From a bacterium (lineage in GTDB: Bacteria; Electryoneota; RPQS01), in NCBI GenBank assembly GCA_013360195.1, contig JABWCQ010000004.1, positions 107,836 through 171,835 of the forward strand: 64,000 nt of DNA. The letters are read 5' to 3'. Below, in pieces: positions 15,451 to 23,605 of this stretch (its first letter is position 1; each line of letters starts with the position of its first letter). The notes beneath the pieces are model-generated. The model saw only the letters and a program-made list of their open reading frames with translations. It searched no databases and was not told the origin of the DNA. The translations under genes and the position numbers were made by a program.

Positions 15451-16373
15451 TGGTTGCCCGCACTCCATAACTGTCCCAGACCTTGTGGAACATCGAACCC
15501 GACGCTGAAAGTATGTGACGGTGAAAGTACCGGATGGTAAAGAAACGCGTAGTCAACTGTAATGTCGCGGTAAAATAAGCCAAATCCGGCGGTGAAGACG
15601 TTCGGATTTGTCATGACGCCGACTCGCAAATGAAACGGCTTTGCCACTTGAAGATCAGAGCCGGCCTTAAAGACTGTCCCGGCTTCAAGGCGTCGTTCGA
15701 TGTCAAAGGAGGTCTTGACGCCGTAATACGGTTCGTATTGCACTCCATAAGACATTGATCGGGGCAAGTCCCGCTTCAAACCGGAACCCATTTGTGGATG
15801 ATTGATGTTGTGAAATGCGCTCGCGAGAACAAATCTGTCCCATACTTTCGCAGTAGCGCCGACATCAATTCCAACGGCCATGGCGCTGCCAAGATCGTAG
15901 GAACCTGAGGGTCCGTCCACAGACTCTCCAAGGCTCCAAGAGATGAACTTAACAGCATAACCAATACTGAAAGCAGAGTAAATATCCTCTTGCAGCAATA
16001 GGCCATGCGCCAAAGAAATTTCAGATTCTGAGGAAACTGTCTCACCGTTAAGTCGTGTGGCGAGGTTTTGAACCGCAAAACCGATTGCTCCAGCCTTCTT
16101 TGGCAGAACTGAAAATCCCGATACCGATATATGGGAAAGAAAGCTTGCTGAGTACGGTTGGTGATACGCAAATCTCCCGCCTGTGCCCTGACTTAGCCCC
16201 AGTCCTGCAGGGTTCCAAAGAACGGCATCGCTGCCGCGCGCTCCTGCTGAGTATGCACCTCCCATTCCTTGTGCTGCCGGTGTCGGAAGATGAGGATTTG
16301 ATACTAACTGAGCGAAGGCGCTGGTTGCCAACACGCTGACAACGAGCAGTAAAGTAGAAAGTGTATTTTTCAC
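15447..16373 (-). CDS. PorV/PorQ-like (FadL-fold) outer-membrane protein
   Basis: 308 residues with a clear signal peptide ('LLLVVSVLATSAFAQ'). The N-terminal pattern 'AQGMGGAYSAGARGSDAVLWNPAGLG' is the hallmark of the PorV/PorQ and UPF0164 group of FadL-like barrels. Regular beta strands continue to the C-terminus. PorV shuttles and PorQ anchors cargo in the type IX secretion system, but many family members outside Bacteroidetes are not tied to it. The GTG start at 16373 overlaps the upstream stop (GTGA), and the gene's own stop overlaps the next ATG, so three secreted or outer-membrane genes are translated as a chain. Confidence 0.8.
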   Translation of the reverse strand: MKNTLSTLLLVVSVLATSAFAQLVSNPHLPTPAAQGMGGAYSAGARGSDAVLWNPAGLGLSQGTGGRFAYHQPYSASFLSHISVSGFSVLPKKAGAIGFAVQNLATRLNGETVSSESEISLAHGLLLQEDIYSAFSIGYAVKFISWSLGESVDGPSGSYDLGSAMAVGIDVGATAKVWDRFVLASAFHNINHPQMGSGLKRDLPRSMSYGVQYEPYYGVKTSFDIERRLEAGTVFKAGSDLQVAKPFHLRVGVMTNPNVFTAGFGLFYRDITVDYAFLYHPVLSPSHTFSVGFDVPQGLGQLWSAGNQ

Positions 16374-19252
16374 AAGCGTGTCCCTACTACGACTGGTTTT
16401 GAGAGGGACTCTGTCTTGCCATTAACAATGGATTCAAGGTGAAGTATATAGGTCCCAAGAGGTAACAGTTCATTAAGATCGTTCCGACCGTCCCATTCGA
16501 GCGATTGGGGACCGCCGGCGCGCTTGTCGACAAACGTGTGAACGAGCTGACCGCGCAAATTGAAGAGCCGTAATCGGACGGCACCAGCTGGCGGTGCATC
16601 CATGTAGATTGGAAACTTCTGGCCGATATCCGGTGCAAAAGCGCGGTTCGGTACTTCCAGTACAAGGTCACCTGAAGGAGCGCCACCTATGCTGGGGTCC
16701 TCAAAATCCTCTGTGTATCCGGCGAGCATTTGAAAATCGCCGTTAAAGGTCGATGAAGGGCCGGCAATGGATACTCTCTTGCCGACTAATTCGCCAAGCG
16801 GAATCCAACCATCGTTTAGCTCAATGCTGTCCAAGTTCATAGAGTCCCACACACGAATTGTCAAATTCCCGGAACCATCGTCAATGAAAATGTTTGTTCC
16901 TCCTCCGACATTTTCATCCACTTGATAGACTGTTCCGATTGTGCGGCACCAGGTCCCGGAGCCGCTCAGAGTTGGATCTGAAACCCGGACAATTTCTGCT
17001 TGCGTGCGCAAGTCGCCTGTCCTGATTTCGATTGGAGGGTATAGCGGTTGGTTTTCGGCAAGAACACGAATATCTGCAGAATTCGGTCCTGCGGCGAACT
17101 CACCCATTTGAATTGAGCCGGAAAATTCATTCACAACACCGGTTATCTCGATCAAATTGCCGCGCTGAATACCCGGAAAAGTGGAAGCCGCTCCTGTTTG
17201 TGACAGATTGAATCCGCGCCCGCTGCCGTCCTGTATATAAGCCGAAATTCTGCGCGAACCGGATGACGTCGTAACGTCCTGCACAAAGTTGACAACTCCG
17301 CGTAAAGTCGTAGGTAACCCTTCATAGGCCCTAAAGTCATTGTAGATATCGGCAATCTCGGTAACTTCAGTAGCACTATACCCACCGAATCCAAGAGTTG
17401 CGTGGCTGAGAACATTGCCCGCCAAGTCTGAAATGTCCGTTACCTCAACCTGATAGGCCGCTGTTGACGGTAGCGATTCAAGTGTCTCAATTTGAACCGT
17501 TCGACCGTCATTGAACAGTTGCGCTGATTCAATGTGCAATTCAGGAAAGTCGGGATTAGTTACTTCAATGATTTCGAATCTATCAAGATTTTCGGCAACA
17601 GAAGGGCTGAGCCGCTCATTGAATCTCAAATTAACCCGGTGCTCCGTTACAGCCTCTGCGGTCAGTAGCTGCGGTGCACGCCGGTCGATTATTCCCATAT
17701 CTTCATTCCGGCGTGGAGCAATCATGTGGCCGGGATTGCTGTTAAACGAAACACAACCTTGTATGAATTGGAAACTATCTCCTTCAGCGGGAGTATAATC
17801 TAAACCGAAATCACCCAGAATGATACCTTCGCCGGTCGCGTCACGCACTGTCCACTGCGCGAAATCACCGAAGTCCTCAGTATTCGTCACGACACATGGC
17901 CCGATATATACAAACCCGCCTTCGTAGGCCTCTGATGAATCGGGCAGCATGCTGGCATGTATCGTGTCCGGCGGTGCAACCACACCTTGACCAAGCACGA
18001 CCACAGAGGATACACTTGATAACTCTGTTAGTTCAAAGTACTCTTGAACACGTGCCGTGACCCGAACGCAATCACCTTCGGCAGGAGTGGAAGGTGGGTT
18101 GAAAACAAGAACACCTGACCACGGGCCACCACCCGGGTCATTCATAAAGAAGCTGCCACCGTCAAAATTTGTCCCTGTGACTATGCCGGTTACCGTTACA
18201 ATCTGACCGTTCAAGGGCGAATCACCACCGGTAGGACTTCCTACATACTGTATGTCGAAAATTGTCAAATTAATCGAGCGAATAAGATAGCTGTAGGTCG
18301 TGGCAGGAGCGCCGTCAGGGGAGAGGGCCTGTGCTCCATCACCGTCTCGAGCCGAGATGTAGAAATGGCACTCTATTCGTTCAGGCCCGGCAGGCAATAT
18401 TCCACCCCACCGGCCATCACCGGCTGCGTCGTCGCCATGCTCGCCATCATCGTGCATCGTAACTGCGGCGAAGTCGCCTGAGTCACCAAATCGGTAGAAA
18501 ACGAGCGCTTCGGTAACGTTATTTTGATCATCACTTATCAGCGCTGTTACAGTTACAGGATCCACACCCGTAGGACGCTCAGGCGAAAAACCAACATCAC
18601 TTATCAGGGGCGGTCGATTTGAAGAGAAGCCAAAGTCGAAGTCACCTCGCGGGTTTAGCGCAAATTCGTTTGAGGTGAATGATACAATGCCGCGCAGGAA
18701 CTCGAGCGTATCGCCGATAAAAGGCTCATAGAGGAATTCAAAGCCGTCTCGAACACGGAGCGGGCCACTCCCATCATTGACAATGAATCCTCCCGTAACG
18801 ATTTCAGTGACCACGGGCAGGGAAAGCTCAGTGAAAACTCCTTCCAGCGGCTCGGAAACGCTGCCGGAAACTGTTGCGTAGGGAGAAATCCCCGTGGAAC
18901 TTTGATGAGCACCAAGTAGTTCGGGGCTGTTTAGGCGTGTTTGGCCTCCAGATTCTGCCACTGTGGCTCGGACAACTACGGAATCGCCAATTTCGATGTT
19001 GCGCGGCTGTGTGTCAAATACAAGCACACCACTCCAGAGGCCACCGCCGGGATCCGAGATGAAATACTGCAGTCCGGAGCTCCCAAACCCATAGCCTGAG
19101 ACTAGACCTGCAACTTCGACTGTTTGGCCCACGAGAGGTGACGCACCGTCAGGCGATTCCGTGAACTGTATATCTCGCACGGAGATCACCTGTCCTGTTG
19201 CATAAGGTATTGACAAAAATAAACTTACAGCGAGTATCGCTAGGAAATGCAT
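16370..19252 (-). CDS. Secreted multi-domain protein: OB-fold repeats, Ig-like domain, FlgD-like C-terminal domain
   Basis: 960 residues with a signal peptide (about 1-20). At least four or five repeated units follow the pattern 'G.I.QD/ND.GG.W.GV.VF....GD.V.V.A.V.E', for example 'DPGGGLWSGVLVFD' and 'DPGGGPWSGVLVFN', resembling the OB-fold domains (DUF5689, YhcR-like) of secreted nucleases. Between them are an Ig/chitinase-like segment (about 215-315) and a SbsA/Big_5-type Ig domain starting 'DRRAPQLLTAEAV'. The C-terminus ('VRLRLFNLRGQLVHTF...GTYILHL') is a FlgD-like/T9SS-type sorting domain. No nuclease catalytic motif was recognised. It heads the chain with the PorV/PorQ-like and HhH-barrel genes. 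Confidence 0.75.
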   Translation of the reverse strand: MHFLAILAVSLFLSIPYATGQVISVRDIQFTESPDGASPLVGQTVEVAGLVSGYGFGSSGLQYFISDPGGGLWSGVLVFDTQPRNIEIGDSVVVRATVAESGGQTRLNSPELLGAHQSSTGISPYATVSGSVSEPLEGVFTELSLPVVTEIVTGGFIVNDGSGPLRVRDGFEFLYEPFIGDTLEFLRGIVSFTSNEFALNPRGDFDFGFSSNRPPLISDVGFSPERPTGVDPVTVTALISDDQNNVTEALVFYRFGDSGDFAAVTMHDDGEHGDDAAGDGRWGGILPAGPERIECHFYISARDGDGAQALSPDGAPATTYSYLIRSINLTIFDIQYVGSPTGGDSPLNGQIVTVTGIVTGTNFDGGSFFMNDPGGGPWSGVLVFNPPSTPAEGDCVRVTARVQEYFELTELSSVSSVVVLGQGVVAPPDTIHASMLPDSSEAYEGGFVYIGPCVVTNTEDFGDFAQWTVRDATGEGIILGDFGLDYTPAEGDSFQFIQGCVSFNSNPGHMIAPRRNEDMGIIDRRAPQLLTAEAVTEHRVNLRFNERLSPSVAENLDRFEIIEVTNPDFPELHIESAQLFNDGRTVQIETLESLPSTAAYQVEVTDISDLAGNVLSHATLGFGGYSATEVTEIADIYNDFRAYEGLPTTLRGVVNFVQDVTTSSGSRRISAYIQDGSGRGFNLSQTGAASTFPGIQRGNLIEITGVVNEFSGSIQMGEFAAGPNSADIRVLAENQPLYPPIEIRTGDLRTQAEIVRVSDPTLSGSGTWCRTIGTVYQVDENVGGGTNIFIDDGSGNLTIRVWDSMNLDSIELNDGWIPLGELVGKRVSIAGPSSTFNGDFQMLAGYTEDFEDPSIGGAPSGDLVLEVPNRAFAPDIGQKFPIYMDAPPAGAVRLRLFNLRGQLVHTFVDKRAGGPQSLEWDGRNDLNELLPLGTYILHLESIVNGKTESLSKPVVVGTRL

Positions 19253-19418: not shown

Positions 19419-21587
19419 ATGCAAAGGATTCTAACTGCAATAATATTTTTGGGAGCAGTTTTTCCCGTCAAAGGCGCGACGGACAAGCTCGGCTTTGCCT
19501 TGGATTCCGCACGAGCTTCCGCTTTCTGGTCGTTACTCAACGAATCTGAGAGGGACCGAGCTTATCGCGTGCTGGACAGCGATTCCTTGCCGCAATCTGC
19601 CCACTGGCAAGGATTGGCAAACTTGCTTCGTGCTTTCTCAACTTATGCGGATTCGTCTTTTGCAGAGGTACCATCGATACTTGATAGAGGGGTACCTTCT
19701 GAACTCGCCGATCACGCAAACTGGCTTCGAGCAAAGGCACTGCTTGAACTCGGCCAACCGCACTTGGCCGGTATCTATATACGCAACCTTCTTAATTCAC
19801 AAATAAAGTTTTATCAAGAGTTTGCAATACAGACGTTGGTTTCTGATTCAACGTTTCAGGAGTCCATCGATTCACTTCAAACTATTGATAATATAGCACT
19901 AAGAATTGGTGCTTCGGAAGAACTCCGACAGCAAATACAAGTTCAAATTGCATCCTTGTGGTCAAGGTCGGGCAAACATGGTGAGGCTTGGCAGACGCTT
20001 TGGTCTGCGTATCTACTTTCACCTGGTTCCGATCTTGGAAAGCAGGCCAGAACCAGTCTGGATAACTATGAAAAACGATATGGCTTCACAGCTCCCGAGC
20101 GTCACTGGGAGGATGTATGGAACGAAATCGAGTGCCTGGAAAGAAGTGGCCTCAAGGCAGAAGCACTGGACAAGTTAGCCGGGATTCGGCAGCGCGGCCG
20201 ATTCTCGTTCCAAGACGAACTCCTTATCGCACGCCAAGTCCGGATTTCAGTCGCGCTGCGACGACATTCTGATGCACTGCGGTTGGCAGATCAGCATCTT
20301 AAGCAGTTTCCTTCTTCCAAATACCGTGACGAAATGCTGTTCTCAATGGTGCGCTCAGCATACCTTACGGATCAAGATGATCTGGCAATTCAGACGGCGG
20401 AAGAGCTTGCTCGAACTGGCACTGATCGGAAACACATTGGAGAAAGCTGGCGACTGATCGGGTTGCTGCATATAGATCGTGATCGTCCAAATGAAGCCAC
20501 AGAGGCCTTTGACAAGTGGTTTGCTTCGACTTCAGGTGGAGAAGGATCAGATGATGCGCTTTGGAACAGAGGCTGGGCGCGCATGCTCGCTGGCCGTTTT
20601 GAAGCGGCGGCAAGAGATTTCGAGCAACTCACGCGCGACTACCCACGCTCAGGCTATTCCGTAATCGGACTTTATTGGTCAGCACAGGCATATCAGAATT
20701 CCGGTCACGTCGATCGAAGTGACAGTCTTTGCGCAGAACTCCATCGTCGCTATCCCTTTTCATACTATGCACAGCTCGGCTGTCATACTGAGCGACGGCC
20801 TGAACCATTGAAGAGAGATTTTCGTCCTTTGAGTCTGGACGAACTTGTGACCACCGGTGGTAAGCATACGAGAGCATTTGCGATGCTGGCCGCGCTTGGC
20901 CTGTGGGAAATGGCGTTGCGGGAATGGCCGAACGTTGAAGCAGAGTGCGGCAAGAGGGCAGATGTTGCTTGGTGGCGGCCGTTGTCCTACTGGAAGAACA
21001 ATGAGCGGTTTCAAGCATGGAGGTGGACGATCAAGGAGTTTCGTGACGAGGCAGCCTCAGCCGGAGAACGACCTGCAGACTTCTTCAATCTTTGGTATCC
21101 CGTTGACTATGAACCTCTGATCTTGGATTTTTGCAATAGATATCACGTTGAACCATATCTTGCGCTTGGCGTTATCTGCCAGGAAAGCCATTTTGACGAC
21201 CAGATTGTCAGTCCGGCTGGTGCAGTAGGCTTGATGCAGCTTATGCCGGCAACAGCAAGAGAACAGGCCAAACGGCTTGGACAAGACTTGAGGGAAAGTG
21301 ATCTACTTGACGGTCCAAGAAATCTTGAGATCGGGATTGCCCATCTTGCTGACTTATTGGACGACCTTAATGGCGATACTATTCTTACGCTATGCGCTTA
21401 CAATGCAGGTATCAATGCGGCGAAACGATGGAAGTCAGAGTTCGGCGATCTTCCACCGGACATGTTTGTCGAGCGAATTCCGTATCGTGAAACGCGGCTT
21501 TACGTAAAGCACATTTTACAGCATATTGCAGCCTACAAAAGGTTGTATCCGCACCTTCAATCGCCTCTCCAGGCAATCGAACCCTGA
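19419..21587 (+). CDS. Soluble lytic murein transglycosylase (Slt70-like, GH23)
   Basis: 722 residues: a signal peptide ('ILTAIIFLGAVFPVKG'), a long alpha-helical TPR-like superhelix (about 25-550) and a C-terminal SLT domain. The catalytic Glu589 lies in 'VICQESHFDDQIVSPAGAVG', followed by 'LMQLMPATA' and 'LCAYNAG', all standard GH23 motifs. It cleaves peptidoglycan glycan strands in the periplasm to 1,6-anhydromuropeptides during turnover. selD follows after only 3 bases, so the two are probably cotranscribed. Confidence 0.92.
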   Translation: MQRILTAIIFLGAVFPVKGATDKLGFALDSARASAFWSLLNESERDRAYRVLDSDSLPQSAHWQGLANLLRAFSTYADSSFAEVPSILDRGVPSELADHANWLRAKALLELGQPHLAGIYIRNLLNSQIKFYQEFAIQTLVSDSTFQESIDSLQTIDNIALRIGASEELRQQIQVQIASLWSRSGKHGEAWQTLWSAYLLSPGSDLGKQARTSLDNYEKRYGFTAPERHWEDVWNEIECLERSGLKAEALDKLAGIRQRGRFSFQDELLIARQVRISVALRRHSDALRLADQHLKQFPSSKYRDEMLFSMVRSAYLTDQDDLAIQTAEELARTGTDRKHIGESWRLIGLLHIDRDRPNEATEAFDKWFASTSGGEGSDDALWNRGWARMLAGRFEAAARDFEQLTRDYPRSGYSVIGLYWSAQAYQNSGHVDRSDSLCAELHRRYPFSYYAQLGCHTERRPEPLKRDFRPLSLDELVTTGGKHTRAFAMLAALGLWEMALREWPNVEAECGKRADVAWWRPLSYWKNNERFQAWRWTIKEFRDEAASAGERPADFFNLWYPVDYEPLILDFCNRYHVEPYLALGVICQESHFDDQIVSPAGAVGLMQLMPATAREQAKRLGQDLRESDLLDGPRNLEIGIAHLADLLDDLNGDTILTLCAYNAGINAAKRWKSEFGDLPPDMFVERIPYRETRLYVKHILQHIAAYKRLYPHLQSPLQAIEP

Positions 21588-21590
21588 ATT

Positions 21591-22634
21591 ATGTCATACA
21601 CCAAGGACGAGTTGACGAAGTTGACCCATCTGGTGCGCTGCGCCGGCTGAGCCTCTAAAATGGATCCGGCGGTGCTGGATCTAATGCTTGACGGTCTTCC
21701 CACGCGCAAGGATGATAACCTGCTTGTGGGATTTGACTATCGTGATGATGCGACTGCTTATCGTCTTCCTTCGGGTGAAGTTCTTGTGCAGACTCTGGAC
21801 TTCTTCACGCCGGTGGTGGACGACCCATATGACTATGGTGCGATTGCAGCCGCGAATGCCTTGTCCGACGTCTACGCGATGAACGGCAGACCCCTCTTTG
21901 CTCTTAACATCTGTGCTTTTCCCAAGAAGTTGCCGGCGGAAATCTGGCGGGAAGTTCTTCGAGGTGGAGCAGAGAAAGCACTTGAGGCAGGCATCATAAT
22001 TGCCGGCGGTCATACGATTGATGACATCGAACCGAAATACGGATTGGTTGTCAGCGGAATTGTTGATCCTAATCGCATCTGGAACAACAAAGGGGCAAGA
22101 GCCGGCGACATGCTAGTCTTGACCAAGCCCCTTGGTACCGGTATTGTTACTACTGCGCTCAAGAACGAAGAATTGACCGCAGAAGACGCAGCGGAAGCCG
22201 TGAAATGGATGAAACTCTTGAATCGCGACATTGCATATACATTGTCGAATCTTGAAATCAAGTCCGCGACTGACGTCACGGGGAATGGTTTTCTTGGTCA
22301 TGCTGCCGAAATGGCTCGAGGTTCCAAAGTGAAGATGAGAATAGATGCGGCATCGATTCCAGTAATTGACGCTGCGTGGCCAAACGCAAGACAGTCAAAA
22401 GTACCTGGCGGCACTAAAATGAATCGGCTATACCTCGGGGATTATGTTACGTTCAAGAACGTGTCCCAGGATTTGCAGTGGTTGCTCTTCGACGCTCAAA
22501 CCTCGGGTGGACTGTTGCTTGCAATTCCGGCTTCAGTCATTGACGAAGCGACCTCGATGCTTAAGGCAAAAGAACTTTTTTACGCTGTTGTTGGAGAGGT
22601 AGAGGCTGGAAGCGGCATAGAGGTAATCGGTTGA
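21591..22634 (+). CDS. selD: Selenide, water dikinase SelD, selenocysteine-containing (in-frame UGA at 21648)
   Basis: Makes selenophosphate from selenide and ATP, the selenium donor for selenocysteine and selenouridine. Ordinary ORF rules start this gene at ATG 21660, but that loses the catalytic loop. The same frame is open from ATG 21591 (3 bases after the previous stop) and is interrupted only by TGA 21648-21650. The translation 'LVRCAG-U-ASKM' puts that codon at residue 20, exactly where SelD has its essential Cys or Sec in a G-C/U motif. A SECIS-like hairpin follows. The full protein is 347 residues, normal for SelD, with 'DDATAYRLPSG', 'TLDFFTPVVDDPYDYG', 'NALSDVYAMNG', 'GGHTIDD' and 'DAQTSGGLL'. 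Sec in SelD is well known in selenoprotein-making bacteria. It needs selA, selB and selC elsewhere in the genome. Confidence 0.93.
21661..21683 (+). promoter_or_regulatory. SECIS-like hairpin of selD
   Basis: TGGATCCGGC (21661-21670) folds back on GCTGGATCTA (21674-21683) as a 10-base-pair stem with two G-U pairs and a GGT loop at 21671-21673. The first loop G is about 20 bases after the TGA, inside the window known for bacterial SECIS elements, and a G at the start of a small loop is the expected SelB contact. It lies inside the coding sequence, as bacterial SECIS elements do. Confidence 0.65.
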
Positions 22635-23605
22635 AACCAGTGAATCTCGCACTTATCGGCGCAACCGGAATGGTCGGACAGACGACTCTGAAAATTCTTG
22701 AAGAGTGGAATATACCGATTTTCAAGCTGTCCTTGTTTGCGTCATCTGGATCAACCGGCAGGCAGGTGCGCGTCGGCGATAAAGAATATCCAGTCCAAGC
22801 GATCTCTGATGACTTGGAGGCAGAGTTTGCCATCATGGCTTTATCATCGGAACTTTCGAGGGAACTAGCGCCCAAATTGATAGCCCGGGGAATCAGGGTA
22901 ATAGATCACTCCAGCGCTCACAGAATGGAAGAGAACGTACCACTGGTGATTCCGGAAATCAACTCTGATGCGATTCAATCGAATTGCAGGCTTGTGGCGA
23001 ATCCAAATTGCTCGGCATCAGTGGTCCTTATGTCTCTTGCGCCCTTGACAAGAAGCTACAATCTTAGGAAAGTGATAATTTCGACTTACCAAAGCGTTAG
23101 TGGTGCCGGGAGTGCGGCGTGCGATGAACTCAGGGCGCAAATGCAAGGCAGTCCGGATTCAAGGTCAGTCTTTCCGCACAGAATTTCCGGCAACCTTTTC
23201 CCGGAGATCGGTGGTTTTGAGCCAACGAATTACACTGGCGAAGAGTCAAAAATAAGTAACGAGATCCGCAAGATTCTCCGCTTGCCGGACCTGCACGTTT
23301 CCGCCACTGCGGTAAGAGTGCCCGTAGAAATCGGCCATTGTGCTGCAGTTAGTGTCGAACTAGACAGACATACTAATCTTGAGGAGGCAAATTCTGCATT
23401 CGAGAATTTCAATGGATTGAAGTCCGACGGAGCATACTATTCAACACCGGCTCAGATTGCAGGAGAACAGGATGTCCGGGTTGGTCGCATCAGAGTCGAT
23501 CCCCAGGATGGCAAATGGTTGCATTTCTGGGTCGCCGGTGATAACACGAGGAAAGGTGCTGCCTCAAATGCAATTCAAATTCTTCAATACTGGGCTGATC
23601 TGTAG
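22631..23605 (+). CDS. asd: Aspartate-semialdehyde dehydrogenase
   Basis: 324 residues. It reduces aspartyl phosphate to aspartate semialdehyde for Lys, Thr, Met and diaminopimelate synthesis. It has the NADP-binding 'LALIGATGMVGQTTL', the catalytic 'NPNCSAS' with Cys127, and 'VRVPVEIGH' with the acid/base His. The TTG start at 22631 overlaps the selD stop (TTGA), so translation is coupled. It overlaps the next gene by 38 bases. Confidence 0.93.
   Translation: MKPVNLALIGATGMVGQTTLKILEEWNIPIFKLSLFASSGSTGRQVRVGDKEYPVQAISDDLEAEFAIMALSSELSRELAPKLIARGIRVIDHSSAHRMEENVPLVIPEINSDAIQSNCRLVANPNCSASVVLMSLAPLTRSYNLRKVIISTYQSVSGAGSAACDELRAQMQGSPDSRSVFPHRISGNLFPEIGGFEPTNYTGEESKISNEIRKILRLPDLHVSATAVRVPVEIGHCAAVSVELDRHTNLEEANSAFENFNGLKSDGAYYSTPAQIAGEQDVRVGRIRVDPQDGKWLHFWVAGDNTRKGAASNAIQILQYWADL

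Follow-up and report, generated by a model that had tools for sequence, protein, structure and literature searches.

Introduction

Selenophosphate synthetase (SelD) with selenocysteine (Sec) in its active site is a textbook selenoprotein (PMC13188914, PMC4561486). SelD ranks second among prokaryotic selenoprotein families in how widely it occurs (PMC13188914). In a reference set, Sec was encoded by about 19% of SelD genes, in every case at the position discussed here (PMC4561486), where the SelD motif is tabulated as UxxK (PMC13188914). Decoding of the corresponding UGA is described by a model of the bacterial SECIS hairpin (bSECIS), which calls for an apical loop of 3 to 9 nt, an upper stem of 4 to 16 bp, a distance of 16 to 37 nt from the UGA, a G at either of the first two loop positions, mostly with G or U next to it on the 3' side, and an energy no higher than -7.5 kcal/mol (PMC13188914). 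Sec-decoding bacteria without the formate dehydrogenase FdhA all had a Sec-SelD, and mostly the selenouridine trait too (PMC1794560).

The Sec-type SelD of Aquifex aeolicus (PDB 2yye/2zod/2zau) is of the same family and the same length as the protein analyzed here and shares its UxxK motif. In both, the redox residue lies in the same N-terminal loop and a bSECIS directly follows the UGA; we found sequence divergence only and no difference in architecture. We take the natural residue of the Aquifex enzyme to be Sec13. The Cys-type SelD of Escherichia coli (PDB 3u0o), which aligns over residues 9-325 (E 1.6e-70), conserves the Lys of the motif but has Cys at the catalytic position, where the SelD described here has a predicted Sec.

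Results

A SelD frame with a single in-frame TGA

The window, by which we mean the whole stretch of 64,000 nt that was analyzed, contains a complete selD gene with the following features:

21591..22634, + strand: selD, selenide, water dikinase, complete; 347 residues with predicted Sec20 (TIGR00476, PF00586, PF02769)
21648..21650, + strand: in-frame TGA, predicted Sec codon (residue 20), opposite E. coli Cys17 and kept in relatives
21657..21659, + strand: codon of Lys23 (conserved Lys in UxxK); falls outside a frame started at 21660

The frame opens at ATG 21591, passes through the TGA at 21648-21650 and closes with a terminal TGA at 22632-22634, exactly as the first-pass annotation had placed it. 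Its read-through product, MSYTKDELTKLTHLVRCAG-U-ASKMDPAVLD..., has no internal stop other than this TGA. Curated models recognize the protein above their cut-offs (TIGR00476, 354.6 bits versus 125; NF002098, 333.8 bits versus 299), and the AIRS N- and C-terminal domains are both matched (PF00586, 91.8 bits; PF02769, 71.1 bits). The TGA falls within CAG-U-ASK, so that U20-A-S-K23 forms the UxxK motif, and in the alignment to the E. coli enzyme U20 stands opposite Cys17 and Lys23 opposite Lys20. Alignment with both Cys- and Sec-type SelDs came out in favor of the original claim that the TGA in CAG-(TGA)-ASK occupies the catalytic position.

A standard ORF call begins at ATG 21660, an open start giving 324 aa without U20 and without Lys23, and selD might on this account be a decaying pseudogene or encode a genuinely shortened protein devoid of its catalytic residue. 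However, the residues preceding ATG 21660 align with solved SelDs; all 23 of them, UxxK motif included, are conserved at the protein level, and a shortened SelD would lack both Sec20 and Lys23. Nor does the gene show any further lesion: over its whole length, TGA included, it is 69% identical to the SelD of a same-genus relative. We regard decay or a short start as very improbable; the correct selD start is 21591. It had been pointed out earlier that calling from ATG 21660 loses the catalytic residue, which is true, and Lys23 goes with it. An annotated SelD of this kind would look inactive because gene callers drop the catalytic residue.

The two genes flanking selD are as follows:

19419..21587, + strand: lytic transglycosylase-like gene, upstream of selD; similar to NF047373, below its cut-off
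22640..23605, + strand: aspartate-semialdehyde dehydrogenase gene, downstream of selD (NF011456, 318.1 bits)

Only 3 bases lie between the end of the transglycosylase-like gene and the selD start, a spacing which suggests that the two are probably co-transcribed. The dehydrogenase frame overlaps the selD stop if its start is TTG 22631. Elsewhere in the window, positions 16370-19252 of the - strand encode a protein of 960 aa that is apparently exported and combines OB-fold-like and Ig-like parts with a FlgD-like/sorting-type domain at the C terminus; such tails are numerous in this genome.

A covarying hairpin follows the TGA

Immediately downstream of the TGA, we predict the following element:

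21661..21683, + strand: bacterial SECIS hairpin (predicted); 10-bp stem, apical loop GGU, loop starting 20 nt past the TGA

The 53 nt from the TGA onward fold with -17.5 kcal/mol (z -2.83) and the hairpin alone with -13.3 kcal/mol, and the structure agrees with all published bSECIS constraints. By itself the hairpin would be weak evidence, because 2 of the 46 ordinary TGA stops examined as a control have a hairpin of this type behind them as well. In the window, the + strand contains 1335 TGA triplets, and the selD TGA is the only one followed by a hairpin this stable. Across 24 sequences, the eight core pairs of the hairpin are 89.1% paired, with compensatory change visible in that 4 of the 8 pairs vary on both sides; such two-sided changes amount to 19 cells, compared to 4.7 in shuffles. 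When the pairing partner was slid by one to three bases, pairing fell to 17-47%. Part of this conservation is protein-driven, since the hairpin sits in coding sequence. Taken together, hairpin and covariation constitute strong evidence, at the sequence level, for a predicted SECIS element.

The TGA is kept throughout the phylum

A strong SelD match was obtained in 34 of the 39 genomes of our phylum sample. Exactly one in-frame TGA is present in 33 of the 35 strong matches, the position of its codon having been read in the fetched loci and the remaining phylum members resting on the count of one TGA. As for the two exceptions, the SelD of genome G004 starts at residue 29 and has no TGA because the contig ends there, while the second is a Cys-type fused frame of 738 aa in G016, which carries the TGA form as well. 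Wherever the DNA of a relative was read across the site, the TGA stands at the same codon, except in the Cys-type copies. Judged by these genes, a Sec-containing SelD is the rule in this phylum.

The Cys-type copies differ in form from the SelD of the window: they are long fused frames of 738-748 aa with GLGCACK at the catalytic site and a SelD domain that is 47% identical. They comprise L035 and the second SelD of G016 (contigs C475 and C206) as well as L034, with lengths of 738 and 748 aa, and may be compared with the NADH dehydrogenase-like SelD fusions described previously (PMC4561486). The nearest named SelDs are 44-51% identical to ours. Among five distant named records, the TGA occurs in two from Neomarinimicrobiota and in a Syntrophus MAG, and Cys in two from Bacteroidetes.

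The distribution bears directly on the possibility that the TGC or TGT of an ordinary Cys-type selD was turned into TGA in sequencing, a concern that the first-pass annotation itself raised, or in assembly. The window does come from a 46-contig assembly, and single-base errors occur; yet other genera, other families and unrelated phyla have the TGA at this codon too, and it is accompanied by a covarying hairpin, for which a Cys gene has no use. Since the TGA recurs in genera that were assembled independently, an error is excluded in practice, and we give it next to no chance.

The genome encodes the Sec-decoding machinery

The genome (3.23 Mb in 46 contigs, 95.8% complete) carries the following genes on contig C2:

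C2:160066-161157: SelA, 423.7 bits
C2:165772-167601: SelB, 324.4 bits (cut-off 242.25)
C2:176084-176178: tRNA-Sec, 56.9 bits (gathering score 47); called tRNA-SeC with anticodon TCA by ARAGORN

These genes span about 16 kb, with selD lying apart on contig C4. The earlier proposition that a Sec-SelD implies a selenocysteine system is thereby borne out: the same genome has all of SelA, SelB and tRNA-Sec, the last with UCA as its anticodon. As far as gene content can speak, this establishes that selenium is used in the lineage and that UGA is decoded there as Sec.

An in-frame TGA alone would also fit a reassigned code in which TGA generally means Trp or Gly. Against this, TGA terminates 46 ORFs of >=150 aa across the window and sel region, scanning the window by codon usage turned up no further convincing gene with a TGA interruption, and the UCA-anticodon tRNA that is present is of the tRNA-Sec type. 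A general reassignment is therefore a vanishingly small prospect. For the selD TGA, sequencing error, pseudogene and reassigned code are each excluded or very unlikely. The candidates produced by the codon-usage scan were mostly adjacent genes sharing a frame, with no selenoprotein-like context.

We put the probability that the selD of the window is a normal, functional Sec-containing selenophosphate synthetase at about 97%. Its sequence and conserved TGA, the covarying hairpin, and a genome that encodes SelA, SelB and tRNA-Sec(UCA) are observed and support SelD as a selenoprotein, as does a further UGA gene with a hairpin in this genome (see below); catalysis, SelB binding and Sec insertion we infer from the family. 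On that basis, a ribosome would reach the UGA at codon 20, where SelB, bound to the hairpin just downstream, would bring Sec-tRNA(Sec) so that the UGA is read as Sec and not as a stop. Sec20 and Lys23, both in the N-terminal loop, would then make up the active site of SelD, which, as in the family, would make selenophosphate from selenide and ATP. Selenophosphate would feed SelA, which would turn Ser-tRNA(Sec) into Sec-tRNA(Sec); making SelD would therefore need SelD's own product. Both the observation and the interpretation offered by the first-pass annotation stand, and each check that it suggested turned out favorably, the search for another gene with an in-frame TGA included, whereas the interest it assigned to them was overstated: with the full machinery present and nearly all relatives sharing the trait, this Sec-SelD is of a well-known kind.

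Searching for further selenoproteins

Since the lineage reads UGA as Sec, other genes in the genome that apparently end at a TGA need re-checking. We did not find a Sec formate dehydrogenase (FdhA): within the approximately 96% of the genome present in the assembly, PF00384 has three matches, and none of these molybdopterin oxidoreductase matches has a TGA or other stop inside it. SelU/YbbB likewise gave no TIGR03167 match in the 95.8% complete genome. Compared with the FdhA-less Sec decoders of PMC1794560, this genome fits the Sec-SelD half of the pattern and not the selenouridine half. The selenoprotein families searched here fall well short of a complete list; within them, no in-frame TGA was found in the PF02754, PF01521 and PF00085 genes of the genome, and the sel region (L017, L018) held no further evident Sec gene among ORFs of >=150 aa.

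The re-checking of genes with apparent TGA stops did bring up one other gene with an in-frame TGA, a redoxin on contig C23 found via a PF00578 search:

C23:17971-19185 (L066:1420-2637): candidate selenoprotein, redoxin with in-frame TGA

The predicted protein consists of an apparent signal peptide (judged by eye), the redoxin domain, a middle part and a sorting domain. Its UxxC motif reads GHT-U-STC, with Sec64 predicted, and its C terminus matches models of type A sorting by the type IX secretion system (T9SS) (TIGR04183, 32.9 bits versus a cut-off of 23; PF18962, 31.3 versus 27). The hairpin after this TGA is short (loop GGA, 17 nt past the TGA, -7.8 kcal/mol) and weak by itself. Five relatives (L075, L077, L080, L081 and L082) also have a TGA in UxxC together with a sorting domain scoring above the cut-off, and in 4 of the 5 a bSECIS-type hairpin occurs at 17 nt. 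Redoxin selenoproteins with UxxC are already known (PMC13188914), and 3 of the 5 relatives match a related model, NCBIfam NF053656, below its cut-off. Our literature search turned up no description of a selenoprotein that bears a sorting tag for type IX secretion.

A side observation concerns L071, the closest relative (same genus). Its protein is 68% identical to the C23 protein in the middle and sorting part, has its own signal-like start and no redoxin domain, and is encoded next to the same upstream gene. From these sequences, the redoxin part seems to have been gained or lost as a unit.

Discussion

Of the genes discussed here, the apparently exported redoxin on C23, whose export and use of Sec are both predicted, most deserves closer attention. 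One tentative picture, to which we give slightly less than even odds, is that this lineage keeps its Sec machinery without a Sec formate dehydrogenase or selenouridine, sustained by SelD and an extracytoplasmic UxxC redoxin with its signal peptide and type IX sorting domain, in which case its selenium would be spent on redox chemistry of the envelope or cell surface.
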